Source of the DNA: Sphaerotilus hippei
GTDB taxonomy: Bacteria; Pseudomonadota; Gammaproteobacteria; Burkholderiales; Burkholderiaceae_C
Length of the DNA stretch: 64,000 nucleotides
Direction: 5' to 3'
NCBI RefSeq assembly: GCF_003201595.1
Contig: NZ_QJJS01000011.1
Location: forward strand, 62,001-126,000
Shown here: in pieces, positions 9,552 through 35,342 of the stretch
Numbering within the stretch: position 1 is the first letter of the stretch
Layout of the letters: every line of letters starts with the position of its first letter
The notes under the pieces: generated by a model
What the model saw: the letters and a program-made list of their open reading frames with translations, nothing else
What the model was told of the DNA's origin: nothing
Databases searched by the model: none
Translations under genes and position numbers: made by a program

Positions 9552-9580
9552 ACTATAGCAAGAAGTCAGGGCGTTGCCAA
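9552..9580 (-). promoter_or_regulatory. Sigma70-type promoter of tRNA-Thr
   Basis: On the minus strand TTGGCA (-35, 9575-9580), a 17-bp spacer, and TATAGT (-10, 9552-9557), ending 10 nt before the tRNA 5' base. The -35 hexamer lies inside the last codons of the upstream glycosyltransferase gene, which ends at 9566. Confidence 0.75.
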
Positions 9581-12500
9581 CTCTGGCGCGTGGTTGGGTT
9601 CAAGACGCTGCTGCCAGAGGTCGGTCACGAGGGCTTCGAGGTCACGCACGAAGCCGGCCGTGTTCCACAGCGGGGCGCTGCGCTGCCGGCTGGCGAGCTG
9701 ATCGCGCCAGCGCTGGCGCAGGTCGCGGTCGCGCAGCAGCTGCAGTGCCAGGGCCTCGTAGTCGCTGTCGCTGCGGGTGATGCCCTGCGGCAGGCCGGCG
9801 GCCTGCAGCAGGCTGGCGCCGACGCGGGCGGCGAAGGCCTGGCCCTGTCGGGTGATGACCGGCACGCCGGCCCACAGCGCATCGCTGACGGTGGTGTGGC
9901 CGTTGTAGACGCGGGTGTCGAGGAACAGGTCGGCCAGCTGCAGGCGCTCGAGGTGGCGGTCCTTGGCCCAGACCGGGGCGAACACCAGCCGGCGCGCATC
10001 CACGCCGGCGGCGGTGGCCGCGGCGCGCAGGCGCTCGCGCACGAGCGCCGGGCCGTCGATCAGCCAGAGCCAGGCGGTCGGCACGGCCTTGAGCAGCCGC
10101 ATCCACAGCGCGAAGGTGTCGGGGTCGAGCTTGTAGTGGGTGCAGAAGCAGGCGATCACCGTGGCGTGCTCGGGCAGGCCGCAGGCGGTGCGCGTCAGCC
10201 CGGTGCGCGCGATGGCCTGCTGGTGGTCGGTGCACTGGTAGCTGTGGGGCAGGCGGGCGATGGGTTCGACGTAGGCGCCGGCGACCGACTCGGGGGTCAC
10301 GACCGCGTCGCCGATGACCGCGTCGAACCAGGGGGCCCCGGCCGCGCCGGGGTAGCCCAGCCAGGTCAGCTGCAGCGGTGCCGGGCGGCGCACGAACACG
10401 CCCGGGCGGCTGTCGCGGGTGTAGCCCTTCAGGTCGATCAGCACGTCGATGTCGTCGGCGCGGATCCGCTCGGCGATGCGGCTCTCGTTCCAGCCGGCCA
10501 CGTCGACGAAGCGGTCGACGTTGTCGAGCAGCTGCTCGCGGTAGTGGCTGCCGTCGTCGGGGCCCCAGGAGTAGAGGCTGATGTGGAAGCGGGCGCGGTC
10601 GTGGCGCTCGAACACGCCGCGCATCAGGTGCATGGTGGCGTGGTTGTGGAAGTCGGCCGAGGCGTAGGCCAGGCGCAGTCGCTGGCCGGGCGCCCGCGCG
10701 CGCGCGGGCGGTGGCGCGAACGGCCCGCCGGCCTTGTGCATCAGGTGGAGCGCGTGGGCCCGGGCCGCGGGCGCGAGCTCGGCGTCGGTGAGCGCGCAGG
10801 GCAGCGACAGCAGCGCGAACGGCGAGGGCGGATCCAGCCCCGCGGGCGGCTCGGCGCAGGCCCGGGCCAGCGCCCGCTGCGACTCGGCGTCGGGCAGGCG
10901 GTCCCAGTCGCACAGCTGCTGGCGCAGGTGCACGACATCGAGCTGCACGCCGACATGGCCGGGCTGCAGGTCCAGACAGACCTCGTACTCGGTCAGCGCA
11001 CGTTCATGCTGGCCCAGCGCGAGGTAGATGGCCGCGAGGTTGAAGCGCGAGGCGAAGTGCTGGCGGTCCAGCGTCAGCAGGCGGCGGTATTCGGCCGCCG
11101 CGGCGGGCAGGTCGCCCCGGGTCTGCAGGCACAGGCCCAGGCTGTAGCTGGCCCGCAGGTGCAGGTGCACCGTCGCGTCCGCGGGCACGCCCTGCGGGCG
11201 GCGGGCCAGGTTCCACAGGTCGACCCCCTGGCGGGTGGTCGACAGCACATGCTCAAAATGGGGCTCGGCCTCTGCCGGCCGCTCGGCCCGCTGCAGCGCG
11301 ATGCCCAGGTTGTAGTGCAGGTCCAGCGCGGCCGGATGGTGCTGCAGGCCGGCGCGGTAGGTGGCGACGGCCTCGTCCAGCCGGCCCAGCGCCACCAGCG
11401 CGTTGCCTCGATGGATCAGCGCCTCCAGTGCATGGGGCTCGAGCAGCAGCGTGTCGTCGGCGGCCAGCAGCGCCTCGTCGTGGCGGCCCAGCAGGCGCAG
11501 CACGTCGGAGCGCTGGCTGTGGGCCTGGCGGTCCAGCGGGGCGTGGCTCAGCGCGGCGTCGAGCAGGCGCAGCGCCTCTTCATGGTGTCCCTGCGCCTTG
11601 CGCAGCAGGCCGAGGTTGCGCCAGGCGTCGGCAAAGCCGGGCCCGACGTCGATGGCCCGTTGATAGGCCTCGGCGGCCAGGTCGGCGTCCCCCAGGCGGC
11701 GGTGGATCGCCCCCAGCAGGGCCCAGGCGTCCGGGCGTCCGGGCTCGCCGATCAGCACGTCGGTGCAGCCGCTGCGGGCGGTCTCGAGCTGGCCGGCCGC
11801 GAAGGCCTCGAAGGCCTGGACCAGGCGGGTCTGGGCGTCGAGCGGCGGCAGCGGGACGGGCGTGTGTCCGGCCCGCTGGCGGACCTGCTCGTGCAGCGCC
11901 GCGGCCACCGCCTGCTCGACGGCCGGCCAGTCGCCGCGCTGCGGCTGGCGGAACAGCCGCATCGACGGGTACCAGTCGCTGCGGGTGGCGTCCATGCCGT
12001 AGCGCCAGTCACGCTGCCAGGGCAGCGTGACCCACACCGGCTTGCCCAGGCAGCCCGCGAGGTGGGCCACGGAGGTGTCGGAGGTGATGACCAGGTCGAG
12101 CTGGGCGATGACCGCGGCGGTGTCGGCGAAGTCGTCGATCTGCGCGTCGAGGTCGACCCAGCAGGCCGGCATCGTGCGACCGTCGAGGTCCTGCCGGCCG
12201 GGGCCTTTCTGCAGCGCGAACCAGCGCACGCCCTCGACCTCGAGCAGCCCGGCCAGCGCGTCCAGCCGCGGCGAGCGCCAGGCGTCGTTCCTGACGTTGG
12301 GATTGCCGGCCCAGACCCAGCCGACGGCCAGCTCGGTGCCGGGCTGCCAGCCGTGGGCCAGCAGCCGTTCGCGCCAGGCGTGCAGCCGCTCGGGCGGCGT
12401 GTGCACGCTGGGGGCCAGGCGTGGCAGCGTGAAGCGTTCGGCGGTGATGGCGTTGGCGGGCACGCCCGGGTGCTGCTGCAGCACCGCCGGCAGGCTCATC

Positions 12501-13315
12501 AGCGCGACGTGGCAGTCGATCGTGCCGGCCTGGGGCGACAGCACGCCCCCGCGGGGCGTGACCGCGGCCACGCCCGGGATGCGTTCGGCCAGCGCCATCA
12601 TCGGCTGCAGCACCTCCAGCACCACCCGCCCGCCGCGCCGCACCACCTCGGGCACGAAGCGCAGGCACTGCAGCGCGTCGCCGAAGCCCTGCTCGGCCCA
12701 GATCAGGATGGTGCGGCCCTGCAGCGGTGCGCCGTCCCACAGCGGTTCGGCGCAGACCCGTGGCTCGGGCTGGCGGCGGGTGAAGCGCCACTCGTAGTCC
12801 CGGAAGCCCTCGGCATGGCGGCCGTGCAGCAGCAGCGCCAGGGCGCGGTTCCAGTGGCCGTCGACATGGCCGGGGTCGAGCTCGACCGTGCGGCTGAAGG
12901 CGGCCAGCGCCGCGTCCCATTCGCCGAAGTGTTCCAGCGCCACCGCCCAGTTGTGGGTCGGCTCGGCGCCGTTCGGGTTGAGCTCGACCGCGCGGCGGTA
13001 GGCGGCCAGCGCCTCGTCGCGCTGCAGCCGGTCGCGCAGCAGGTTGCCCAGGTTGTTCCAGGCATCCGGGTAGTCCGGCTGCAGGCTCAGTGCCTGGCGG
13101 TAGGCGGCTTCGGCGGCGTCGAGCCGCTCGTGGCGTTTCTCCAGGATGCCCAGCAGCGTCCAGGCGTCGGCGCGCCGGGGCAGCAGCTCGACGGCACGGC
13201 GCGCCAGCGGCAGCGCGGCCTCGAACTGCTGCGCCTGGTAGAGCGCGAAGGCGCGTTCGAGCGGCGGGCCGTCGTCGGCGGTCGGCGCCACGGTCCGGGG
13301 TTCGGTCTCAGGCAT
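9566..13315 (-). CDS. TPR / GT9-like / TPR / GT41 (OGT/SPINDLY-like) glycosyltransferase
   Basis: A 1,249-aa cytoplasmic protein. Order: TPRs (~15-170); a GT9-like domain (~195-470) with the ADP-heptosyltransferase signature VITSDTSVAHLAGCLGKPVW near 410-430; a second TPR set (~495-790); and a C-terminal GT41 domain (~875-1240) like eukaryotic O-GlcNAc transferase. GT41 hallmarks are HNHATMHLM, DVLIDLKGYTRD, RPAPLQLTWLGYPG, FCTHYKLDPDTFALW and YNGHTTVSDALWAGVPVIT. By family it should transfer a sugar from a nucleotide donor to Ser/Thr of a protein held by the TPRs. I chose the ATG at 13315, which overlaps the upstream gene stop by 8 nt; a GTG at 13348 is the alternative. It is the second gene of a two-gene operon just downstream of the giant Ser/Thr repeat protein, the likely acceptor (inference). 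Confidence 0.9.
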   Translation of the reverse strand: MPETEPRTVAPTADDGPPLERAFALYQAQQFEAALPLARRAVELLPRRADAWTLLGILEKRHERLDAAEAAYRQALSLQPDYPDAWNNLGNLLRDRLQRDEALAAYRRAVELNPNGAEPTHNWAVALEHFGEWDAALAAFSRTVELDPGHVDGHWNRALALLLHGRHAEGFRDYEWRFTRRQPEPRVCAEPLWDGAPLQGRTILIWAEQGFGDALQCLRFVPEVVRRGGRVVLEVLQPMMALAERIPGVAAVTPRGGVLSPQAGTIDCHVALMSLPAVLQQHPGVPANAITAERFTLPRLAPSVHTPPERLHAWRERLLAHGWQPGTELAVGWVWAGNPNVRNDAWRSPRLDALAGLLEVEGVRWFALQKGPGRQDLDGRTMPACWVDLDAQIDDFADTAAVIAQLDLVITSDTSVAHLAGCLGKPVWVTLPWQRDWRYGMDATRSDWYPSMRLFRQPQRGDWPAVEQAVAAALHEQVRQRAGHTPVPLPPLDAQTRLVQAFEAFAAGQLETARSGCTDVLIGEPGRPDAWALLGAIHRRLGDADLAAEAYQRAIDVGPGFADAWRNLGLLRKAQGHHEEALRLLDAALSHAPLDRQAHSQRSDVLRLLGRHDEALLAADDTLLLEPHALEALIHRGNALVALGRLDEAVATYRAGLQHHPAALDLHYNLGIALQRAERPAEAEPHFEHVLSTTRQGVDLWNLARRPQGVPADATVHLHLRASYSLGLCLQTRGDLPAAAAEYRRLLTLDRQHFASRFNLAAIYLALGQHERALTEYEVCLDLQPGHVGVQLDVVHLRQQLCDWDRLPDAESQRALARACAEPPAGLDPPSPFALLSLPCALTDAELAPAARAHALHLMHKAGGPFAPPPARARAPGQRLRLAYASADFHNHATMHLMRGVFERHDRARFHISLYSWGPDDGSHYREQLLDNVDRFVDVAGWNESRIAERIRADDIDVLIDLKGYTRDSRPGVFVRRPAPLQLTWLGYPGAAGAPWFDAVIGDAVVTPESVAGAYVEPIARLPHSYQCTDHQQAIARTGLTRTACGLPEHATVIACFCTHYKLDPDTFALWMRLLKAVPTAWLWLIDGPALVRERLRAAATAAGVDARRLVFAPVWAKDRHLERLQLADLFLDTRVYNGHTTVSDALWAGVPVITRQGQAFAARVGASLLQAAGLPQGITRSDSDYEALALQLLRDRDLRQRWRDQLASRQRSAPLWNTAGFVRDLEALVTDLWQQRLEPNHAPELATP

Positions 13316-16300
13316 GGCTGCTCGGGATGCGCGAGGGTTTGACGGCACGCAGCGCGAACTGCAGCACCTGGCCGTCGTCGTGGCTGTGCACGACGCTGAA
13401 GTCGGCCTTGAAGATCCAGCGGAAGTCGCTCATCGCCGTCTTGCCGACCTGGGCGATGTACTGCATCTGGTCGAGGAAGATGAACTGCTCGGGCTGGATG
13501 ATGCGGGTGTGCGACGGGTCGCCCCAGGCCCAGGGCGAGTGGCGCGAGGGGCAGGTGCCGATCAGCACGCCACCCGGGCGCAGGATGCGCCAGAACTCGC
13601 TGAACTGGGCGAAGTAGAAGCGGAAGTCGCCCTGGGCACCGGTGTGCTCGAGCACCTCGTAGGCGTGGATCTCGTTGAACTCGTCGTCGCCGTAGGGCAG
13701 CGGCAGCTGGGTCAGGTCCCAGACCATGTCGGGGCGGTGGTCGGGGTTGATGTCCAGCGTGCACAGCTCGGTCCAGTGGCTGCGCCCGTTCAGGCTGAGC
13801 TTCTTGGCGTGGTTGCCGCCGCAGCCGATCAGCAGTTCGCGGTAGGACGTCAGCGCGGGCTGCAGCGCCGCCGGTCCGGCCGGCACGAGCGTGGCGGGCG
13901 GCAGGACGAGCGCGGAGGGTGTGGCGAGCGAGGAGGCGGGCAGGGCGAGTTCGGCATTCATGGTCAGCAGCGTCTCCGGGGCGGGAAGCAGGATGGGGCA
14001 GGGCGGTGCCGCCTGCGCGGTCAGCGGGCGCAGGCGTTCGGCCGGCAGGTGCACCGGTGGCAGGCCCTGTTCGGCGCGGGCCCACATGCGGCGGTAGAGC
14101 GCCTCGAGCTCGACGGTGAAGCGTCCGGCGTCGAACAGCGGCAGCGTCTCGCGCCGCTGCGTCAGGTGCTCGCGCAGGCGCAGGCGGCGCGGGGTGTCGT
14201 GCACCAGGGCCAGCGTCAGCTCGACGTAGTCGTCCTCGGTGCGCACCGCCAGCTCGGGCAGGCCGGCCGCGCTGACCAGGCTGGTGGCCACCCGCGAGGC
14301 GAAGGTCTCGCCGGTGCGGGTGATCACGGGCACGCCGGCCCACAGCGCATCGCTGGCGGTGGTGTGGGCGTTGTAGGGTTCGGTGTCCAGGCTCAGGTCG
14401 GCCTGCTGCAGGCGGCCCAGGTGCGCACCCAGCGGCAGCTCGCCACCGAAGACCAGGCGCGAGTCGTCCAGGCCTTCGGCGGCCAGCGCCTGCCGCAGGT
14501 GGGCCTCGGCCAGCGGGTTGGAGCGCAGCAGCCACAGCACCGTCCGCGGTGCGGCCTTCAGGATGCTGCACCAGCGGGCGAACACCGGTCGGGTGATCTT
14601 GTAGTTGTGGTTGAAGCAGGCCAGCACCACCGCGTCCTCGGGCAGGCCGAGCGCGGCGCGCTCGGGCCGCTCGCCGATGCGGCGGTGGCGGTCGTTGGGC
14701 TGGTAGCAGTCGGGCAGCTGGGCGATGCGCTCGTCGTAGTCGGACGCGTGGGCCAGCGGCGTGACGATCGGGTCGCCCAGCACGTAGTCGGCGAAGGGGT
14801 CGCCCAGCGTGCCGGGGTAGCCGAGGTGACTGACCTGCACCGGTGCCGGGCGCAGCGCCAGCACCTGGCTGCGCGTGTCGCGGGTGTAGCCCTTCAGGTC
14901 GACCAGGATGTCGATGCCGTCGGCATGGATGCGGCGGGCGAGGTCCTCGACCGACAGCGCGGCCACGTCGTGGAAGGCGTCGCAGGCCATGCGGATGCGG
15001 GTGCGCATCTCGCGGCCGTCGTCGGCGCCGCAGGAGTAGGCGACGACCTCGACCTTCGAGCGGTCGTGGCGCTCGAACACCTCGGCCATCAGGTAGGCGG
15101 TGGCGTGGTTGTGCAGGTCCGAGCTCAGGTAGCCGATGCGCAGCCGCTCGCGCGGGCCGGTCTGCCGCGGCAGGGCCAGCGTGCGGGCCCGCTCGAGCTG
15201 CGGTCGGTACTGCGCCGCGACCCACTGCTGCGCGCAGCGGCGCTGTTCGGCCCGGCTGGTGTCGATGGCCAGGAAGGCGAAGGGAAACACCGGCTGCGGG
15301 GGCGTGCCCGAGGCCACCATCGAGCGCAGGCGGGTGGCACTGGCCTCGGCCCCGCTCCAGTCGCAGGCGTTCTGCTGCACCCGCAGCAGCGAGGTCAGCG
15401 CGTTGACGTAGTCGGGGTCGATCGCCAGCGCGGCCTGGTAGGTGTCGATGGCCTCGGCCAGCCGGCCGCTGTCGTTGAGCACGCCGGCCAGGTTGTAGAG
15501 CACCGGGGCGTTGAGCGGCTCGGCCTGCAGCGCCCGGCGGAACAGCGCCTCGGCCTCGGCCAGCCGGCCGGCCTTCTGGGCCGCGGCGGCCAGCACGTTG
15601 TGCAGGCTGGCGGAGTCGGGGCGGTGCGTGAGCCCTTCGCGCCAAGCGGCCTCGGCCTCGGCCGGGCGGCCCTGGGCGGTCAGGCTGTTGCCCAGTTGGG
15701 TCCAGTGCTCGTCCTGTCCGGGCAGGCGCCGGGTCGCCTCGCGGTAGGCGGCCTCGGCGGCGGCCTCGTCGCCCAGGGCCCGCAGCAGGTGGCCGAAGTT
15801 GCCCAGCACCGTGGCGCGGAACGGCTGTTCCCCGCAGCGGGCGAGGGCCTGCTCGAAGGCGGCGCGGGCCTCGTCGCCGCGCTGCTGGCGCTTGAGCGCG
15901 AGGGCGCGCAGGTGCCAGCCGTCGACGCTGTCGTCGATGGCCAGCGCCGCCAGCGCGCTGGCCTCGGCCTCGGCGGGCTGGCCGGCCTGCAGCGAGCGGA
16001 TGGCCTGCGACAGCAGCGTCTCGGCCGCGGTCCGGTCGGCGGCACCCTCGTGGGCGGCCAGGCGCTGGCGCAGCGCGGTGGCGACCTCGTCGATCACGCC
16101 GGCCCAGTCGCGCGGCTGGCGCTGGCGGAACAGGCGCAGGCTGGGGTACCAGGCGCTGTGGCTGGTCTCGCGCAGCCAGCGCCAGTCCGGGCCGTGGGCC
16201 ACCAGCACCCAGGCCGGGCGGTTCAGCGCGCCGGCCAGGTGCACGATCGAGGTGTCCACGCTGATCAGCAGGTCGAGCGACTCGACGATGGCGGCGGTGT

Positions 16301-17831
16301 CGGTGAAGTCGCGCAGCTCCTCGTCGAGGTCCAGCACGCGGGAGACGAAGCCCGAGCCACGCAGCGCCTCGGCCGCCTCGCCCTTCTGCAGGCTGACCCA
16401 GGCGATCTGCCGGCCGTCCGGATCGAGCGCCAGCAGCGGCGCCAGCGTGTCCAGCGAGGTCGAGCGGTTGCGGTTGTTGGCGTGGTCCTTGTTGCCGGCC
16501 CAGACCAGGCCGACCCGCAGGCGGCCCGCGGCATGGCGGTCCAGGCGCTGGCGCCACGAGGCGGCCAGCGCGGCGGGGGCGTGCAGATAGGGCACGGCGG
16601 CCGGCACCGTGTCCGAGCGCGTGCCCAGCCGGTGCGGCAGGCTCAGCAGGAAGGCCCAGCAGTCGTAGGCGTGCTCGTGCATCTGCCCGGGCGCGATGAC
16701 CCGGGTCGGGCCGTCCAGGCCACGCAGCAGCGCCACCAGCGGGCCGTCGACGATCAGCGTGACCTCGGCGCCCGCGTCGCGCAGCTGCGCGGCGTAGCGG
16801 CAGAACTGCAGCTGGTCGCCCAGGCCCTGCTCGCGCACCAGCGCGATGTGCCGGCCCGCCAGCGGCTCGCCCTGCCACATCGGGCAGGGCAGGTCCGGCG
16901 GCTTGGGTGCGCTCTTGTTCTGCGAGCGGCCGTGGTAGCGCACCTCGTAGCCGGCAAAACCACGCTCGAGCTCGCCGAACAGCAGGTCGGCCAGCGCGAT
17001 GTTGTAGAGCGTGTCGGGGTTGTCCGGTGCCAGGGCCAGCGCCCGGTCGTAGCAGGCCAGCGCCTGGGCGTGGTCACCGAGCTCCTTGTGCAGCTGTCCC
17101 AGGCTGTTCCAGGTGCGCCAGAAGCCGGGATCGATGGCGAGGATCTGTTCGTAGAGCCGGCCGGCCTCGGCGAAGCGCCCGGCCTCCTTGACGATGGTGG
17201 CCAGGTTGTTGAGCGCGTTGCGGTGCTGCGGCTGGCGGGCCAGCACGTCGCGGTAGCACTGCTCGGCCTCGTCGCTGCGGCCCAGCTCCTGCAGCAGCGT
17301 GCCGAGGTTGTTGCGCGTCTCGGCGTGGTCGGTGCGGGCGGCCAGCGCGGCGCGGTAGCGCTGCTCGGCCTCGGCCCAGCGTCCGCGCGCCTGCAGCACC
17401 AGGCCCAGGTTGTTGAGCGCCTCGGCGTTGCCCGGCTCCAGCGCCAGGCCACGCTGCAGCGCCGCCTCGGCCTGCGGCCAGCGCTGCAGCGCGCGCAGCA
17501 CCTCGCCGAGGTTGACCTGCATGTCCGCCGAGTCCGGGCGCTGCGCGGTGGCGCGCTCCATCCAGGGCAGGGCCTCGTCGCTGCGGCCCTGCAAGTGCAG
17601 CGCCAGGCCCAGCAGGTGCATCAGGTCGGGCTCGCCGGCCCGCTGCTCCAGCCCTTGGCGGCAGACCTCGGCCATCGCGACCGGATCGCCGCTGCGGAAG
17701 TGCTGCAGCGCCAGGCGCAGCCGGGCGACCAGCGCCTCGTCCCGCTGCACGGGCGCGGCGGAGGCCATCGCGGACGGGGCGCTGGTGGAGGCGGTGGCGG
17801 TATCGGTTTCGGGCGGGCAGGCGAGATCCAT
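13308..17831 (-). CDS. TPR / GT9-like / TPR / GT41 / SAM-methyltransferase fusion
   Basis: A 1,507-aa cytoplasmic fusion. Order: TPRs (~30-290); a GT9-like domain (~315-590) with DLLISVDTSIVHLAGALNRP near 525; TPRs (~600-840); a GT41 domain (~895-1245) with HNHATAYLMAEVFERHD, DILVDLKGYTRDTRS, RPAPVQVSHLGYPGTLG, FNHNYKITRPVFARW and YNAHTTASDALWAGVP; then a class I methyltransferase (~1328-1507) with ELLIGCGGN as the SAM loop, TLDINPDHRPDMVWDL, an EVLEHT motif and WRILRPGGVLIG. GT41 members O-glycosylate Ser/Thr; a fused methyltransferase suggests methylation of the sugar or its precursor (inference). The gene starts 92 bp downstream of the giant repeat gene stop, beyond a terminator, and its start codon touches a 10-bp-stem hairpin. 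No clear Shine-Dalgarno sequence. Confidence 0.9.
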   Translation of the reverse strand: MDLACPPETDTATASTSAPSAMASAAPVQRDEALVARLRLALQHFRSGDPVAMAEVCRQGLEQRAGEPDLMHLLGLALHLQGRSDEALPWMERATAQRPDSADMQVNLGEVLRALQRWPQAEAALQRGLALEPGNAEALNNLGLVLQARGRWAEAEQRYRAALAARTDHAETRNNLGTLLQELGRSDEAEQCYRDVLARQPQHRNALNNLATIVKEAGRFAEAGRLYEQILAIDPGFWRTWNSLGQLHKELGDHAQALACYDRALALAPDNPDTLYNIALADLLFGELERGFAGYEVRYHGRSQNKSAPKPPDLPCPMWQGEPLAGRHIALVREQGLGDQLQFCRYAAQLRDAGAEVTLIVDGPLVALLRGLDGPTRVIAPGQMHEHAYDCWAFLLSLPHRLGTRSDTVPAAVPYLHAPAALAASWRQRLDRHAAGRLRVGLVWAGNKDHANNRNRSTSLDTLAPLLALDPDGRQIAWVSLQKGEAAEALRGSGFVSRVLDLDEELRDFTDTAAIVESLDLLISVDTSIVHLAGALNRPAWVLVAHGPDWRWLRETSHSAWYPSLRLFRQRQPRDWAGVIDEVATALRQRLAAHEGAADRTAAETLLSQAIRSLQAGQPAEAEASALAALAIDDSVDGWHLRALALKRQQRGDEARAAFEQALARCGEQPFRATVLGNFGHLLRALGDEAAAEAAYREATRRLPGQDEHWTQLGNSLTAQGRPAEAEAAWREGLTHRPDSASLHNVLAAAAQKAGRLAEAEALFRRALQAEPLNAPVLYNLAGVLNDSGRLAEAIDTYQAALAIDPDYVNALTSLLRVQQNACDWSGAEASATRLRSMVASGTPPQPVFPFAFLAIDTSRAEQRRCAQQWVAAQYRPQLERARTLALPRQTGPRERLRIGYLSSDLHNHATAYLMAEVFERHDRSKVEVVAYSCGADDGREMRTRIRMACDAFHDVAALSVEDLARRIHADGIDILVDLKGYTRDTRSQVLALRPAPVQVSHLGYPGTLGDPFADYVLGDPIVTPLAHASDYDERIAQLPDCYQPNDRHRRIGERPERAALGLPEDAVVLACFNHNYKITRPVFARWCSILKAAPRTVLWLLRSNPLAEAHLRQALAAEGLDDSRLVFGGELPLGAHLGRLQQADLSLDTEPYNAHTTASDALWAGVPVITRTGETFASRVATSLVSAAGLPELAVRTEDDYVELTLALVHDTPRRLRLREHLTQRRETLPLFDAGRFTVELEALYRRMWARAEQGLPPVHLPAERLRPLTAQAAPPCPILLPAPETLLTMNAELALPASSLATPSALVLPPATLVPAGPAALQPALTSYRELLIGCGGNHAKKLSLNGRSHWTELCTLDINPDHRPDMVWDLTQLPLPYGDDEFNEIHAYEVLEHTGAQGDFRFYFAQFSEFWRILRPGGVLIGTCPSRHSPWAWGDPSHTRIIQPEQFIFLDQMQYIAQVGKTAMSDFRWIFKADFSVVHSHDDGQVLQFALRAVKPSRIPSSHA

Positions 17832-17861
17832 CGGGACAGCTTAGGACCGCCGCTGTCCCGA
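17831..17861 (-). promoter_or_regulatory. Hairpin abutting the start codon of the large glycosyltransferase gene
   Basis: GCTGTCCCGA (17852-17861) and TCGGGACAGC (17831-17840) are perfect 10-base inverted arms with an 11-nt loop. In the minus-strand transcript the stem's last base is the A of the AUG. No purine-rich ribosome site is visible between stem and start. It could block ribosome loading or be a protein-binding operator. Confidence 0.55.
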
Positions 17862-17870
17862 CATGAGCGC

Positions 17871-17898
17871 AAAAAGGCGGGTGTGAGCCCGCCTTTTT
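17871..17898. terminator. Bidirectional intrinsic terminator after the giant repeat gene
   Basis: AAAAAGGCGGG, a 6-nt loop, CCCGCCTTTTT: an exactly symmetric hairpin with an A-run on one side and a T-run on the other, 23 bp past the giant gene stop. On the minus strand it should end or reduce transcription before the glycosyltransferase genes. Confidence 0.9.
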
Positions 17899-17921
17899 CG
17901 GCCCCGGTGGTGGATGGGCCG

Positions 17922-18370
17922 TCAGGAACCGAAGAAGTCGCCGCTGTCCAGGTTCTTGAGTTGCGTGCCCAGCAGCTTGATCTCCATGTCCGCCGAGCCG
18001 TCGCCGTCCAGGTCGATCTGGATGACCGAGTCCGATGTCGTCAGGCCGGCGCCGTAGGCCGCCCCGTCGACGGCGCGGATCTCGGTCTGGCCGATCGTGC
18101 CGGTGAAGGCGCTGCTGCCGACATAACCCATCGCGCCCTGCACCATGCCCAGCAGGTAGAGCTGGTCGATGGAGGTGGTGGCCGTGCCGGCGTTGAAGCC
18201 GGTGATGGTGTCCACCGACACCCCGGTCGACTCGGACGCGTTCTTGTAGAGGAAACGGTCCGCGCCGGCCCCGGCGGTGATCGTGTCGGCGTCGGCACCG
18301 GCATACACCGTCGCTCCGGTCTTGCCGGTGATCAGGATGGTGTCGGCGCCGCTGCTGCCGATCACGCTCT
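17922..18370 (-). other. C-terminal RTX/serralysin-like secretion region of the giant protein
   Basis: The repeats stop near 18360. What follows contains GADADTITAGAGADRFLY, one or two degenerate Ca-binding nonapeptides, then VDTITGFNAGT and an IDLDGDGSADMEI segment ending in GDFFGS. This end structure is known for serralysins and other type I substrates, whose signal is C-terminal and not cleaved. Boundaries are approximate. Confidence 0.7.
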
Positions 18371-21300
18371 CGACGCTGTTGGCCGCCAGGCGACCGGCAT
18401 CGAGCATCGTGACCGTGTCGGTGCCGTTGGCCGCACCGACCACGCTCTCGACCGAGGACACCGACACCGAGGCCGAGCTGAGCAGCGTCAGCACGTCGGT
18501 GGTGGCCGTGGAGCCGAGCACCGTCTCGATCGCCGAGGTCTTGATGGCCCCCGTCGTGCCCATGGTCAGCACGTCGATGCCCGACGAGCCGGTGATGCTC
18601 TCGACGGCACGCACCTCCAGTGCCCCTGCCGAGGTCATCACCACCGCGTCGGTCGCGGCGCTCGAGCCGACCACGGTCTCGACGCCGCTGACCCGGTAGG
18701 TGCCGGTGGCCAGCAGGTTGACCACGTCGGTGCCGGTGCTGCCGAGCACCGTCTCCACCGCGGACACCTTGATCGAGCCTTCGCTCAGCAGCGAGACCAC
18801 GTCGTTGGTGCGTGCGCTGCCCAGCACGGTGTCGATGCCCGACACGCTGAGCAGGCCGCCGGTGAGCATGGTGACGATGTCGGTGAGGCCGGTCGTGCCG
18901 ATGACACTCTCGACCGCGCTGACCCGCACGTTGCCCGCGGTGATCAGCGTGAGCACGTCGACGGTGCCGGTGCTGCCCAGCACGGTCTCCACGCCGCTGA
19001 CGGCCATCAGGCTGTCGAGCATGCGCACCGTGTCGACTCCGGCCGAGCCGAGCACCGATTCGACCGCGCTGGTGGCCAGGGTGCCGGCGGCCAGCAGCGT
19101 GACGATGTCGGTGCCGCCGGAGCCCAGGATGCTGTCGATCGCGCTGACCCTGATGCTGCCGGCCGTCAGCAGCGTCAGCGTCTCGACGTTGCGGCTGCCG
19201 ACCACGCTCTCGACGCTCGACAGCGCGACGCTGCCGGCGTTGAACAGCACGACCTGGTCGGTGGTGTCGCTGGAGCCCAGCACCGTCTCGATGCCGGTCA
19301 GCTTGAGCATGCCGCCGCTCAGCATCGTCACGGTGTCACCCGTGCCGGTGGTGCCGGTGATGTTCTCGACCGCGCTGACGCTCACCGACACCTGGCCGCT
19401 GCCCAGCAGCGTCAGCGCGTCGGCGCTGGCGGTCGAGCCGATCACGGTCTCGACCGCCGAGGTGGCCAGCGTCGCGGCGGCCAGCAGGCGCACCACGTCG
19501 GTGTTGCCGGTGCTGCCGGTGACCGTCTCGACGGCCGAGACCGACAGGTCGGCGCTGGTGAGCATCTGCACCGTGTCGCGGCCGCTGGAGCCGACCACGC
19601 TGTCGATCGACGAGACCGCCAGCGTGCCCGCGCTCAGCAGGCGCACGACGTCGGTGGTCTCGCTGGTGCCGGTGATGGATTCGACCGCGGACAGCGCCAC
19701 CGTGCCGGCGGCCAGCATCACCAGGCTGTCGGTGCTGCCGGCCGAGCCGAGCACGCTGTCGATGTCGGAGATCACCACCGTCGCCGCCGTGGCCAGCGCG
19801 AGGATCTCGGTCGTGCCGGTCGAGCCGATCACCGACTCGATCGCCGAGATCGTGACGGTGCCGTTGGTGCCGGTCAGCGTCAGCGTGTCGCTGGCGCCGG
19901 CCGAGCCGGTGACGGTCTCGATCGCGCTGGTGCTCAGCGCGCCGCCCGACAGCATCACCACGGCATCGGTCTTGCCGGTCGAGCCGACGACGGTCTCGAC
20001 GTCGCTGACGCTGAGCGTGCCCTGGGCCAGCAGTTGCACCACGTCGGCGGTGTCGAGGCTGCCGATCACCGTGTCGACCAGGCTGACCGACACCGTGCCG
20101 CCCTTGAGCAGGCTGACGATGTCGGTGGTGGCCGCCGTGCCCAGCACGGTGTCGATGTCGGAGACCGCCAGCGAGCCGGTGGTCAGCATCGTGATGATCT
20201 CGGTCACGCCGGTCTGGCCGTAGATCGACTCGATCGCCGAGACCGCGACGGTGCCGGCGGCCATGACCTTCAGCAGGTCGGTGCTGCCGGCCGAGCCGAC
20301 CACGGTCTCGACCGCGCTGGTGCTCAGGCTGCCGGTGGCGTCCATGCGCACGACGTCGCGCCCGGCGCTGCCGACCACGGTGTCGACGGCCGAGACGTTC
20401 AGCGTGCCGGCAGCCAGCAGCGTGACCACGTCGGTGGTGTCGGCCGTGCCGACCACCGATTCGATCAGGCTGACGCCCACCGAGCCGGCGGTCAGCAGCG
20501 TGATCACCTCGCCGGTGCCGGCGGTGCCGATCACCGATTCGACCCCCGAGACGACCAGGCTGCCGGTCGTGCCCAGCGTGACCACGTCGCTTGCGGCGGT
20601 CGAGCCGATCACCGTCTCGATGGCCGAGACCATGATCGAGCCGGCGGCCAGCAGGGTGACGATGTCGGTGGTGGCGGTGGTGCCGACCGCCGACTCGACG
20701 CCCGACAGCGCCACCTGGCCGGTTTCGCGCATCGCGACGGTGTCGCGCCCGATGGAGCCGACCACCGATTCGATCGCCGAGATCGACAGCGTGCCGGCGG
20801 TCAGCAGCGTGATCGCGTCGTCGCTCTGCGCCGAGCCGGTGACGCTCTCGACGCCGCTGACGGCGAGCGCGCCGCCGTCGAGCAGCGTGACGGCGTCGCT
20901 GGCCGCGGCGCTGCCGACGACCGTGTCGACGTCGGAGATGGCCACCGCACCGGCGGTCAGCAGGCGCACCACCTCGGTGGCGCCGGCGGTGCCGAGCACG
21001 GTGTCGACCTGCGAGACCGACACGTCGGCGCCGACGATCGACAGGATCTCGGTCTGGCCGTTCTGGCCGATGACCGACTCGATCCCGGTGACCTGCAGCT
21101 CGCCACCCCCGAGCACGGTGATGACGTCGGTGCCGGTGGTGCCGACCGCGCTCTCGACCGACTGCACGCTCAGCCGGCCGGCGGCCAGCAGCGTGACCTG
21201 GTCGGTGGTGTCGCCCCCGCCGATCAGGGTCTCGATGCCGCTGACGCTGACCGAGGCGCTGTCGAGCAGCGTGATGGTGTCACCGCTGCCGCTGGAGCCG

Positions 21301-24300
21301 ATCAGGGTCTCGATGCTGCTGACGGCCACGCTGGCCAGGCTCAGCAGGGTCAGCACTTCGGTGGCGGTGGAGCCCAGCACGCTCTCGACGCTGCTGACGG
21401 CCAGTGCGCCGGTGGTGCTGGCGCTGTCGATCGTCAGCGTGTCGGTGCCCGCCGAACCGATCACGGTGTCGACCTCGCTGAGGCTGACCGCGCCCTGGGT
21501 CAGCAGGCGCACGAGGTCGGTGGTGGCCGTGGTGCCGACCACGCTGTCGACCAGCGAGACGCTGATCGCGCCGGCCGACAGCAGCGTGACCTGGTCACCC
21601 GCGGCGGTCGTGCCCAGCACCGTCTCGATGCCGGAGACGGCGACCTCGCCGGTGGTCAGCAGGTTGAGCGTGTCGGTGGCCGCGGCCGAGCCGATCACCG
21701 TGGCGATGTCGGAGATGCCGACGGTGCCGGTGGCCAGCAGCGTCAGCACGTCGCCGCCGCCGGTGCCCAGCACCGATTCGATCCGCGAGACCGACAGGCT
21801 GCCGGTGTTGAGCAGCGTGACGGCGTCGCCCGTGCCGGTGCTGCCGATGACGGTGGCCACGTCGCTGACGGCCAGCGTGCCGGTGGCCAGCAGCGTGACC
21901 ACGTCGGTGCTCGCGCCGGTGCCGAGCACGGTGTCGACGCCCGACAGGCTGACGCTGCCGGTGGCGAGCAGCGCGACGACGTCGCTGGCCTGGGTGGTGC
22001 CGATGATCGATTCGACCGCGGAGATCGCCAGCGTGCCCGAGGCCAGCATCGTGATCACGTCGCCGACGGCCGTGCTGCCGGTCACGGTCTCGATGCCCGA
22101 GATCGCCAGGCTGCCCGCGCCGAGCATGTGCAGCGCGTCGCCCGCGCCGGTGGTGCCGATCACCGTCTCGATGGCGGTGATGCGGACCTCGGAGGCGGGG
22201 GTGTCGAGCAGGGTCAGCACGTCGGTGCGGCCGGTCGAGCCGGTCACGGTCTCGACCGACGAGACCGCGATCGCGCCGCCGGTCAGCAGCGTGACGGACT
22301 CGTTGCCTCCGGCGTCGCCGATGACGGTCTCGACGCCCGAGACCTTGATCGCATCCCCTGCGGACAGGTGCACCTGGTCGGTGACGCCCGAGGCGCCGAG
22401 CACCGTGTCGATGCCCGAGACCTGGACCGAGCCGCTGTGCAGCAGCGTGACGGTGTCGTTGGTGGTCGTGGTGCTGCCGACGACCGTGTCGATCGACGAG
22501 ATCGACACCGCCGACTGGTTGCCCGCCAGCGTCAGGCTGTCGCTGCCGGTGGTGCCCAGCACGGTCTCGACCGCGCTGACGGTGAGGCTGCCGGCGCTCG
22601 CCAGCGTGACGATGTCGCTGCCGGCGCTGCCGATGATGGTGTCGATCGCGTCGATGCGCAACTGGCCGCTGCTCAGCAGGGTCAGCGTCTCGTCGGTGGC
22701 GGTCGTGCCCACGACGGTGTCGATGGCCGAGAGGCTCAGCGCCGTCTGCGTGCCGCTCAGCGTGACGGCATCGGCCGCGCCGGCGCTGCCGATCAGCGTC
22801 TCGACGCCGTCGACCACGATCGAGCCGCCTTGCAGGATGCGCACGACGTCGGTGCCGGTGCTGCCGGTCAGGCTCTCGATGGCCGACAGGCTGACGCTGG
22901 CGCCGTTGCCTTCGAGCGTCAGGTGATCGCTGCCGGTCGAGCCGATGATGGACTCGAAGGCGCTGGCGCTGATGCTGCCCGCGCTCAGCAGGCTCAGGAC
23001 CTCGCCGGTGGCGGTGGTGCCGGTGGCCGAGTCGATGTCGCGCACGGCCAGCGAGCCGCCGCTCAGCAGCGTCACCGCCTCGCCGACCACGGTCGTGCCG
23101 ATGACGGTGTCGACCGCGCCCACGGCCAGGCTGTCGCCTTCGTTGGCCAGCGTGACCACCTCGGTCTGGCCGGTGCTGCCCAGCACGCTCTCGACGTCCG
23201 AGACGGTCAGCGAGCCGCCGTTGAGCAGGCGCACGACGTCGGTGCTGTCGACCGAGCCGACCACCGACTCGATCGAGGAGACGGCCACGGTGCCCGTGGC
23301 CAGCAGGGTCAGGGTCTCGGTCGCGCCGGTGCGGCCGATGACGGTGTTGATGTCGGAGACCGACAGTTCGGTGCCGGCGTTCAGCGTGACCACCTCGGTC
23401 AGCGCCGACGCGCCGGTGACGCTCTCGACGTCGGAGATCGCCAGCGCGCCGCTGGTCAGCATCACGACGGCGTCGCTGGTGTCGGTGCTGCCGATGACCG
23501 ACTCGACCGCCGAGACCTCCAGCGTGCCGCCGGCCAGCATCTGCACCTGGTCGTTGTTGGCGGAGGTGCCGATGACCTGCTCGACATCGGAGACGCCGAC
23601 CAGGCCGCTGCCCATCAGGCGCACGACGTCACCGGTCAGCACCGAGCCCTGCACGGTCTCGATGCCCGAGATGGCCAGCGTGCCGTTGGTGAGCATCGTC
23701 GCCACGTCGGTGCCGGTGGTGCCGGTCAGCGTTTCCACGGCGGACACGCTGACCGCCCCTTCGGTCAGCAGCACGACGCTGTCGTTGGTCGCGCTGCTGC
23801 CGGTGACGGTCTCGAAGGCCGAGATCCGCACCGTGCCGCCGCCGAGCAGCTGCAGCTCGTCGCTGCTGTCGGTCGTGCCGATCGCGCTCTCGACGGCCGA
23901 GATCGCCAGGGTGCCGGGGGTGGTCAGCGTGACGATGTCCGCGACACCCGACGAGCCCTGCACGGTCTCGACGTTGGCCACGCTGAGCGGGCCGGTGCTG
24001 AGCATGCGGACCAGGTCGGTGCCCGACGAGCCGGTGATGCTGTCGACGGCGGAGACGGCCACGGTGCCCGAGGACAGCAGCTCCAGCTCGTCGGTCGACG
24101 CGGTGGTGCCGATGACGGTCTCGATGTCGCTGGCCGACAGCAGGCCGGTGGTGGCCATCGTCAGGGTGTCGGTGCCGGTCGAGCCCAGCACGGTCTCGAC
24201 CTGGGAGATGCGCACGGTGCTGGCGCCCAGCAGCGTCAGCGTGTCGCCCGAGGACGTGCCGCCGATGACGGAGTCGATGTCCTGCACGCTCAGCTCGCCG

Positions 24301-27300
24301 CTGTCGAGCAGGCGCACGGTGTCGACCACGCCGCTGCGGCCGATCACGGTGTCGATGTCCGACACCGCCAGGCTGCCCGCGCTCAGCAGCGTCAGCACCT
24401 CGGTGGCGCCGTCGCTGCCCAGCACGGTCTCGATGGTCGACAGCGCGATGCTGCCGCCGTTGAGCAGGGTCAGCGTGTCGGTGCCCGAGCTGCCCAGCAG
24501 GGTCTCGACGTCGGAGACGGCCACCGAGCCGGCGGTCAGGAAGCGCACCGTGTCCGTGCCGGCGGTGCCGACCACGCTGGCCACGGCCGACACGCCCAGC
24601 GTGCCCGCGGCCAGCATCTCGACGGTGTCGTCACCGCCGGTGCCGATGACGGTCTCGACCTCCGAGACGGCCAGCGTGCCGCCGGTCAGCAGCTGCACGG
24701 CGTCGTTGCCGGTGGAGCCGAGCACGGTGTCGACCTCGCTGACCCGCACCGTGCCGCTGGCGAGCAGCTGCACGGTGTCGACCGAGGCGATGTTGCCCAG
24801 CACCGTCTCGACGGCGCTGACGGCGATCTCGCCGCCGTTGGCCATCGTGACCCGGTCGGTGGCGGCCAGCGAGCCCAGCACGGTCTCGACGTCGCTGACG
24901 GTCACGCCGCCCGCGGTCAGCAGGCGCACGACGTCGGCGCTGTCGCCGGTGCCGATCACGCTCTCGATGCCGGAGATGTTCAGGGTCAGGTCGGTGCTGA
25001 GCTGCACCACGGTGTCGCTGCCGGCGCTGCCGATGACGCTGTCGACCTGGTCGACCGTCAGCTCGCCGGCGGCCAGCAGCACGACGCTGTCGGCGCTGCC
25101 GGCCACGCCGGTGACGCTGGCCACGCTGGAGACCGACACCTGGGCCGCGCTCATCAGCGTCAGGTGGTCGCCGGCCTCGCCGGTGCCGATCACCGATTCG
25201 ACCTGGCTGACCTGCAGCGCGCCGGTGGTCAGCAGCGTGACCACGTCACGCGTGCCCAGGCCGCCGATCAGGGTCTCGACGTCGGAGATGGCCACCGAGC
25301 CGCTGGTCAGCAGCTGCACCAGGTCGGCGCCGGTCGAGCCCAGCAGGGTCTCCACCGCCGAGATCGCGATCGTGCTGTCGACCAGCAGCTGCACGGTGTC
25401 GGTGCCGGTCGAGCCGATGGCGCTGTCGATGTCGCTGACGCTCAGCGAGCCGGCGCTGAGCATGCGCACGGTGTCGGCCGTGCCGCCCGCGCCGGTGACG
25501 CTCTCGACCTCGCTGACGTAGACCGTGCCCGCGGTGCCCAGCGTGACGTGGTCGGTCAGCGCCGACGAGCCCAGCACGCTCTCGATGCCGCTGACGGTGA
25601 GCGCGTCGCCGGTCATCATCTGCACGATGTCGATGCCGTCGCTGCCCTGCACCGACTCGACGTCCTGGACCGCCACCGTGGCGGCGGTCAGCAGGCGGAC
25701 CTCGTCGGTGCTGCCCGACGAGCCGGTGACCGTCTCGACGGCGGAGATGCTGACGACCCCGTCGGTCAGCAGCGTGATCGCGTCGGTGCCGCCGGCCGTG
25801 CCGACGACGCTGTCGACGTCGGAGATGGCGAGGGCGCCACCCTGCAGCAGGTGCACGGTGTCGGCGCTGCCACCGCCGGCGGCGATGACGGTCTCGACAT
25901 CGCTGACCGCGAGCACGCCGTCGGCCGTGGCCTGCGTGACCACGTCGCTGGTGCCGGCCGAGCCGATCACCGAGGTGATCTGGGCCACCGTGACCGCGCT
26001 GCCGTCGAGCAGCGTCAGCACGTCGGTGCTGCTGCCGGTGCCGGTGACGGATTCGACCTCGCTGACCGCCAGCGAGCCGGCGACGGCCAGCGTCACATGG
26101 TCGGTGCTGCCGGTCGAGCCGATCACCGACTCGATCGCCGAGATCGACACCGTGCTGCCGTCGAGCAGGCGCAGCACGTCGCTGCCGGTCGAGCCGATGA
26201 CGTTCTCGATGTCGCTGATGGCCAGCGTGCCGGCGTTGCTCAGCGTGACGGTATCGCTGCCACCCCCCTGGCCGATCACGGTCTCGACGTCGGAGACGCT
26301 GACCGTGGCGTTGGTGTCCATCAGGCGCAGCTCGTCGTCCGAGGCGGCCGAGCCGACGATGCTCTCGACGGCCGACAGCGCGAGCGTGCCGCCCGACAGC
26401 ATCACCAGCGTGTCGCTGCCGCTCGCGCCGGTGACGGTCTCGATGCCCGAGACGGCCAGCGTGCCGGCGGTGAGCAGTTCCACCACGTCGGTGCCGGTCG
26501 AGCCGGTCACGGTGTCGATGGCCGAGACGCCGATCGTGCCGGCGTCGAGCAGGTGCACGACCTCGGTACTGGCGGTGCCGCCGATGACGGTCTCGACCGC
26601 CGAGACCGACAGCGTGCCGGGGGCGACGCGCAGGATGTCGGTGCCGCCGGAGCCGAGCACGGTGTCGATCTGGTTGACCGTGACCTGGCCCCCCGCCGAG
26701 GCGGCCAGGGTCACGACCTCGACCGCGTTGGCCGAGCCGGTGATGCTGTCGACCGCATCGGCGCCGCCCGAGACGGTGAGTGCGCCACCGCCTTGCAGCG
26801 TGACCCGGTCGGCGCCGCTGGTGCCGGTGACGGATTCGATGCCGGCCACCGTCAGGCTGCCGGCGGTGAGCAGGGTGACCTCGTCGGCCGTGCCGGCCGC
26901 GCCGATCACGGTCTCGACGTCCGAGACCGCCAGCGTGCCGTCGGTCAGCATCGTGACCACGTCGGTGCCGGTGGAGCCGAGCACCGATTCGATCTCGGTC
27001 ACCGACATGCCTCCGCCCGTCAGCATCGCCAGCGTGTCGGTGCCGGAGGTGCCGACCACGCTCTCGATGCTGGAGACGGCATGCGTGCCGCTGTCGCCGA
27101 AGGTGACGGTGTCGACCGAGCCGGCCGCGCCCAGCACCGTCTCGACGTCGCTGGCCAGCAGCGCACCGCCGCCGGCGAGTTGCAGCACGTCGGTGGTGCC
27201 GCTCGAGCCGGTCACGGTCTCGATGCCGGTCACCGACAGGCTGCCGCTGAGCATGGTCACGGCGTCGGCGCCGGTGGTGCCGACGACGGTGCCCACGCTG

Positions 27301-31307: not shown

Positions 31308-35342
<4,035 letters not shown>

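Follow-up and report, generated by a model that had tools for sequence, protein, structure and literature searches.

A five-part glycosyltransferase–methyltransferase chain in Sphaerotilus hippei, probably dedicated to a giant type I secreted repeat protein

What would a single bacterial protein carrying two kinds of glycosyltransferase and a methyltransferase act on, and in what order? The question is raised by gene A of a 64,000-nucleotide stretch of Sphaerotilus hippei (contig NZ_QJJS01000011.1, positions 62,001 to 126,000; hereafter 'the window'), one uninterrupted, ATG-started open reading frame (ORF) of 1507 amino acids (aa). An earlier note on this DNA had read its product as a five-part fusion—tetratricopeptide repeat (TPR), GT9-like glycosyltransferase, TPR, GT41 glycosyltransferase, and methyltransferase—and had suggested that one enzyme might attach, extend, or cap an O-glycan; it missed the unit around A, which consists of a paralogue (gene B), a giant repeat protein (gene G), and a type I exporter (Table 1). 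From comparisons of sequences and gene neighbourhoods, we consider it probable that A and B form a soluble, substrate-dedicated cytoplasmic O-glycosylation cassette that would decorate G before its type I export.

The five-part order is borne out, with the GT9-type and methyltransferase parts falling below the curated cut-offs of Pfam. Pfam TPR arrays flank residues 285–600 on both sides, and a Pro/Ala-rich linker (residues 1263–1325) lies between GT41 and the methyltransferase. The GT41 part scores 302.5 bits against PF13844 (cut-off 25); its closest solved structure, aligned along the whole domain, is that of XcOGT (E 5e-85), human OGT is matched at about E 2e-78, and HMW1C-like enzymes are matched at E 5e-7 to 8e-6, so that a place in the HMW1C branch was rejected in favour of the OGT branch. 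Alignment with XcOGT, whose catalytic pair we take to be H218/K388, puts the catalytic His and Lys of A at H909 and K1078, and the same pair is kept in B.

The GT9-type part is more divergent. Residues 285–600 reach 18.3 bits against Glyco_transf_9 (PF01075; cut-off 22), in a match covering merely a 32-residue stretch around the motif DTSxxH, and a profile of the domain finds WaaC in the Protein Data Bank (PDB) at E 0.014. The AlphaFold model of this part (pLDDT 93.9) points to a GT-B fold nearest the heptosyltransferases: its best fold matches are a Veillonella GT9 protein (Z 19.2), WaaF (18.7), WaaC (17.9), and TibC (17.0), followed by three plant NDH-complex chains (Z 15.9–16.9) and, from 13.2 down, UDP-GlcNAc 2-epimerases. 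When relatives were aligned in 37 rows (the 38 rows of the tree described below minus one near copy, with the two window rows cut by window coordinates and slightly longer), 34 of the 37 matched Glyco_transf_9 at E ≤ 0.01 (best 1.8e-7). The Asp of the motif EQGxGD (D339, within EQGLGD, in A) is invariant in these rows; T527 and H531 of D-T-S-x-x-H (D526-T527-S528..H531 in A) are conserved in at least 90 per cent of them, and D526, present in A, is conserved in under 90 per cent. In the superposition on WaaC, residue 43 of the model pairs with WaaC residue 1, and D339 (model residue 55) would fall at WaaC residue 13 if no gap intervenes; D13 is presumably the catalytic Asp of WaaC. The earlier note's impression that the GT9 and GT41 signature motifs are intact therefore stands, and its proposed check for lost catalytic residues found D339, T527, and H531 as well as H909 and K1078 in place.

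The C-terminal end of A (residues 1326–1507) scores 19.2–20.4 bits against Methyltransf_11, whose cut-off is 21.2. All six aligned members of its family, A included, match Methyltransf_11 at E ≤ 0.01 (best 1.2e-6). None of the six departs from the two glycines of the first motif or from the acidic residue that follows the second strand, and five relatives share 63–67 per cent identity; the part is, judged from these alignments, class I S-adenosylmethionine (SAM) methyltransferase-like. A search of PDB sequences with this part of A returned no match. Close relatives are found in five genomes overall (the own genome, G566, G217, G1215, and G1196), from matches in 4 of 399 (two of these weak), 4 of 14, and 3 of 289 genomes queried. 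Three of the five have the close form at giant loci, and in one it shares a chain with GT9; neither G1196 nor G217 gave a G-like match. Methyltransferase-like genes near the f30 giants (35–37 per cent over about 90 residues) were not counted as the same family. A phage origin was considered and rejected: there was a single weak phage match (29 per cent), no PHROG match, and no match in plasmids.

The candidate substrate lies immediately upstream of A on the same strand. G as called has 4474 aa, 28.7 per cent of them Ser or Thr, and likely starts at the ATG at 31307. It is built of about 168 units of 26 aa (a motif split gives 168 starts, mostly spaced 26 [99 cases] or 25 [38 cases] residues apart), and in the units that are 26 residues long Ser or Thr occupies position 3 in 96 per cent, position 25 in 86 per cent, and position 7 in 79 per cent. 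Its C terminus is of the serralysin/RTX type (Peptidase_M10_C, 29.1 bits; cut-off 20.7). Divergent from G are genes for a type I ATP-binding cassette (ABC) transporter and a HlyD-type adaptor. B, which is 35 per cent identical to A over A176–1263, likely has its true start at the ATG at 13313–13315; as this overlaps the TGA stop of A (ATGCCTGA), the two enzymes are likely translated together.

Table 1. Features of the A–B–G locus in window coordinates, with B-like proteins of related loci in the coordinates of their own stretches
Feature	Location	Strand	Evidence
Gene A, five-part fusion, 1507 aa	13308..17831	-	single ORF and domain searches
A, TPR array 1, residues 1-284 (TPR about 36-280)	16980..17831	-	Pfam TPR families
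A, GT9-type GT-B domain, residues 285-600	16032..16979	-	sub-cut-off Pfam, model, fold matches, alignment
A, TPR array 2, residues 601-850	15282..16031	-	Pfam
A, GT41 (OGT) domain, residues 851-1262	14046..15281	-	Pfam, XcOGT match, catalytic residues
A, class I SAM methyltransferase-like domain, residues 1326-1507	13311..13856	-	Methyltransf_11, relatives
Gene B, 1260 aa, TPR-GT9-TPR-GT41 paralogue of A	9566..13348	-	ORF, Pfam, alignment with A
Gene G, giant repeat protein, proposed substrate	17922..31346	-	ORF, Pfam C terminus, repeat split
Type I secretion ABC transporter, PrtD type, divergent from G	31501..33588	+	TIGR01842, 652 bits vs 510
Type I secretion HlyD-type adaptor	33585..35342	+	TIGR01843, 332.5 bits vs 208.65
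Perfect 11-bp hairpin ending UUUUU, between G and A	17871..17898	-	sequence, folding
Second hairpin, extends into A start codon	17830..17862	-	folding
B-like TPR proteins (two of four ORFs cut by stretch end)	L192:16390-19431, L193:16507-19500, L194:3579-6770, L195:16504-19500

That G is the target is suggested by how often the arrangement recurs. With the N-terminal 294 aa of G as query, relatives turned up in 8 of the 399 order-level genomes searched and in 4 of the 398 phylum-level ones, the own genome being in both counts; these make 11 distinct genomes, drawn from two samples that differ in reach and in E limits. In 10 of the 11, GT9 and/or GT41 ORFs directly adjoin a giant. The adjacency carries the argument because relatives of GT41 and GT9 are common anyway, being present in 67 of 100 relatives regardless of a giant. 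Module order and number in the chains beside giants vary freely: A and B in the own genome; GT41-GT9-GT9 as one chain of 1713–1725 aa in G088, G682, G624, and G653; GT41 on a short contig in G710; GT41-GT41 and GT9-GT41 in G619; GT41-methyltransferase (GT41-MT), GT9-GT9, GT41, and GT41 in G566; a 2495-aa chain of four GT9 modules in G1295, facing the giant in convergent orientation; and, in G1215, a genome from a different class, a GT41-GT41 chain that diverges from the giant, a GT9-GT41 chain, and the methyltransferase (71 per cent) at the contig end. ABC and HlyD genes lie within the fetched flank of the giant in the own genome, G566, G624, and G653, and ABC alone in G682; those of G566 are on a second contig, divergent from the giant's start, which gives the plan of the own locus spread over two contigs. 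The G619 giant, with both flanks fetched, has neither, and the remaining giant loci show none or end at a contig edge. The G619 giant (L107, about 15567–17500) has its RTX-type end in another frame than its repeats, a possible frameshift.

Quick trees of the modules, with SH-aLRT rather than bootstrap branch support and with duplicate or short modules removed beforehand (GT41 from 110 to 94 rows, GT9 from 49 to 38), tell the same story for B. Its GT9 module falls in a clade of 13 (SH-aLRT 100) and its GT41 module in a clade of 12 (SH-aLRT 95), and all members of both clades are giant-linked. By its GT9 domain, A is placed with two TPR-GT9 genes that stand alone (G058 and G093; SH-aLRT 95), and by its GT41 domain it is placed with the GT41-MT chains from G566 and G1196 (SH-aLRT 97); from these groupings in separate trees, A is a mosaic in which a GT9 module of one lineage was joined to a GT41-MT unit of another.

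The division of labour that we propose is as follows. The TPR arrays of A and B would hold the long repetitive chain of G in the cytoplasm; GT41 would transfer the sugar of a UDP-sugar to Ser/Thr of G; the GT9-type domain would add a different kind of sugar to the chain of G, and would more probably do so at Ser/Thr sites of its own than solely on the GT41 sugar; the methyltransferase would O-methylate, and so cap, a sugar; and glycosylated G would then leave via the type I exporter. The most likely donor for GT9 is ADP-heptose, and the own genome encodes the ADP-heptose epimerase HldD (417 bits; cut-off 274.6), the sole enzyme of that pathway looked for.

Four other accounts have to be weighed, two of which concern the integrity of A. 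That A might be an assembly or sequencing fusion, as the earlier note had allowed, draws on the complete five-part chain having been found in the own genome alone among the genomes screened (the glycosyltransferase screens scored five candidates per genome in one case and two in the other, and fusions elsewhere can be missed) and on the lower overall GC of the methyltransferase part (0.668, as against 0.73–0.76 in the other domains). Against this, the frame is open throughout, third-position GC is 0.96–0.97 in all five domains (0.889 in the linker), B repeats the first four parts in the same order, and partial chains exist elsewhere, GT41-MT in G566 and G1196 and GT9-GT41 in G619, G824, G847, and G1215; an artefact is rejected as extremely improbable. 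These chains also temper the earlier claim that GT9 and GT41 in one protein is unusual: the combination is rarer than single domains, but it recurs, and only the added methyltransferase makes A singular. It is further conceivable, but in our judgement unlikely, that one catalytic domain of A, be it GT9 or the methyltransferase, is a scaffold or pseudo-enzyme. Both score below their Pfam cut-offs, and relatives include a GT41 that has lost its catalytic residues as well as a B-like protein lacking the catalytic motifs; A nevertheless keeps D339, T527, and H531 within a confident GT9 fold, and the methyltransferase family is 63–67 per cent identical across distant genomes, with motif glycines and acidic residue unchanged in all six members.

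The other two accounts concern what the enzymes do. Three catalytic domains in one chain would suit a strict sequence, in which GT41 first glycosylates Ser/Thr, GT9 then extends that sugar with heptose, and the methyltransferase caps the product; neighbouring GT9 and GT41 genes on plasmids of Azospirillum ramasamyi (with a methyltransferase gene ahead) and Burkholderia glumae, which probably act together, fit it too. A chain of four GT9 modules adjoins the G1295 giant with no GT41 in the stretch fetched, however, and in G088 and G682 a GT41 module without catalytic residues accompanies intact GT9 modules, both of which suggest that GT9 does not depend on the GT41 product; the free variation of module order and number points the same way. 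As G088 has further GT41 genes elsewhere, sequential action is only weakened by its case. Thus, of the earlier proposal that one enzyme attaches, extends, and caps an O-glycan, protein O-glycosylation is supported by our comparisons, and the strict order is possible but doubtful, a less favoured option than GT41 and GT9 decorating G in parallel, which we think they probably do. Finally, A and B might glycosylate flagellin, pilin, lipopolysaccharide, or capsule, the giant's neighbourhood being incidental. TPR-GT41 genes do adjoin flagellin in the own genome (contig C29, where Pfam confirms both flagellin and FliD), G004, G012, and G847, among others. But the GT41 of the flagellin locus in the own genome is a separate one, which disfavours flagellin as the target of A and B, and adjacency in 10 of 11 giant genomes, across several families and another class, together with clades specific to giant loci, makes an incidental neighbourhood improbable.

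Dedication of A and B to G nonetheless has to accommodate a number of observations that weigh against it. The 10 genomes represent about six independent lineages, because five of them belong to one genus (f30/g77), in which 5 of 12 genomes have the giant. No glycosyltransferase gene accompanies the giant of G1299 in the contigs fetched; of the three giant loci fetched from G1295, one has such genes and two do not. Both A domains lie outside the giant-specific clades, as do the four GT9 modules of G1295, which form a clade of their own, and the first module of the GT41-GT41 chains in G619 and G1215 sits in a distant GT41 branch. The GT41 modules of L101 (G088) and L114 (G682), two closely related genomes, have lost both the catalytic His and Lys, both GT9 modules of each chain being intact. 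The close form of the methyltransferase occurs in only 3 of the 11 giant genomes, and structure prediction, proposed earlier as a check and favourable to the GT9 part, gave the methyltransferase of A a model of pLDDT 42. GT9-GT41 chains also occur apart from G-like giants, beside Pfam-confirmed flagellin and FliD in G847 and beside other genes in G824. Lastly, 24 of 34 further glycosyltransferase-bearing stretches outside the genus and the giant loci (a sample of unequal lengths, many ended by contig edges) have no flagellin, ALTTAQ-repeat, G-like, or ABC-plus-HlyD neighbour.

The remainder of that survey, in which neighbour counts rest on BLAST with proteins of the window or the own genome as queries, shows what this type of enzyme accompanies elsewhere. 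Among the 34 stretches, seven have flagellin, two have ALTTAQ ORFs (one of these also flagellin), and two have ABC and HlyD. Within the same genus, 7 of 10 stretches around a TPR-GT41 gene (G001, G002, G005, G007, G009, G010, and G011) have it directly adjoining an ALTTAQ-repeat giant (L053, L190–L195; open frames of 1830–2906 aa with 21–23 per cent Ser and Thr), and five of these seven loci include ABC and HlyD; two others (G004 and G012) have it beside flagellin and FliD, and in G006 it precedes ABC and HlyD, the other side ending at a contig edge. The ALTTAQ assignment comes from PF20080 in the one giant scanned and from BLAST in all seven. BLASTP of G against the seven, with the low-complexity filter on, gave no match at 1e-3, and these giants are unrelated to G; a search of open-licence papers found no report on ALTTAQ. 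Near the other side of the ALTTAQ giant in four species is a TPR protein of about 1000–1064 aa homologous to B (Table 1; the L194 protein is 32 per cent identical over B202–1248). A simple pattern scan of the four found no GT9 or GT41 catalytic motif where expected, and we read them as a dead B-like paralogue. On the Burkholderia glumae plasmid, as on that of Azospirillum ramasamyi, GT9 and GT41 are neighbouring single genes, and they lie about 5 kb from two YadA-like adhesins. The Azospirillum ramasamyi plasmid has, at L200:13013–17479, a class I methyltransferase, a TPR-GT9, and a TPR-GT41 protein encoded by three adjacent separate genes, an unfused counterpart of A; its methyltransferase scores 59.8 bits against Methyltransf_11 and has no detectable similarity to that of A at E 1e-3. 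Wherever the target of such an enzyme can be guessed, it is an exported repetitive protein.

How the locus is expressed may be read from the 101-base stretch between G and A, whose folding was equalled by 0 of 200 shuffles. The perfect hairpin nearer to G is a probable terminator or attenuator, which would leave A and B to read-through or a promoter of their own; a consensus terminator scan listed none between G and A, probably because the U run belongs to the stem. The annotated start codon of A sits inside the second hairpin, and translation could begin at a later ATG. Together the hairpins (window 17830–17898) suggest strong expression of G and weak expression of the enzymes. Two further observations concern the window. 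Close to its C terminus, the ABC exporter in its called form contains a long run of Gln-Ala dipeptides. Long open frames lie antisense to these genes (9590–13342 [+], 1250 aa; 13314–31388 [+], 6024 aa); they are expected given a third-position GC of 0.94–0.98 and were not taken as genes.

Parts of this arrangement have precedents. XcOGT, to which the GT41 domain of A aligns over its full length (E 5e-85), likewise has TPRs in front of GT41; we know of no GT9 or methyltransferase fused to it, nor, to our knowledge, is its native substrate known. HMW1C and NGT are GT41 N-glucosyltransferases dedicated to an exported adhesin, and A differs from them in lying nearer the OGT branch (E 5e-85 as against 5e-7 to 8e-6). 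In Caulobacter, FlmG joins TPRs to a glycosyltransferase and glycosylates flagellin in the cytoplasm, experiments having shown the need for the TPRs (PMC7591256). In both FlmG and A, a TPR array and a glycosyltransferase share one chain encoded beside an exported protein; FlmG has one catalytic domain, flagellin as substrate, and pseudaminic acid as donor, whereas A has three catalytic domains and its gene neighbours that of a type I secreted giant. The heptosyltransferase TibC modifies a protein, an autotransporter adhesin, with Asp-110 as candidate catalytic base (PMC4358343). The GT9 part of A resembles it in fold (Z 17.0), and direct glycosylation of the protein by GT9, in parallel with GT41, would be TibC-like, as GT9 seems not to need the GT41 product. 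Membership of the TibC/BAHT family was rejected: TibC is a dodecamer with an N-terminal beta-barrel and a four-cysteine iron-finger (PMC4358343), whereas the GT9 domain of A lies between TPR arrays and has three cysteines, unclustered in the sequence.

Single TPR-GT41 and TPR-GT9 proteins are, then, common, and dedicated protein glycosyltransferases such as FlmG, TibC, and HMW1C are already known; what is new is that several catalytic modules are shuffled into chains that accompany giant type I secreted proteins, and that one chain unites GT9, GT41, and a methyltransferase. By title and abstract, the matches listed among open-licence PubMed Central (PMC) papers included no report of such a fusion or locus and none of a glycosylation partner devoted to giants secreted by the type I route. 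Whether A and B exemplify a widely exchanged, module-shuffling cassette, whose fused TPR-GT41 and TPR-GT9 chains would hyperglycosylate type I giants with two sugars (plus a methyl cap in the case of A) before or during export, we judge an evenly balanced question. The link between glycosyltransferase genes and such giants is close enough for most of the glycosyltransferase modules to fall into clades of their own. Natural shuffling of GT9 and GT41 has put enzymes that combine two or three activities at hand, together with a defined repeat substrate, and in such chains the choice of donor, the alternative of parallel or sequential action, and the effect of TPR length are directly testable.

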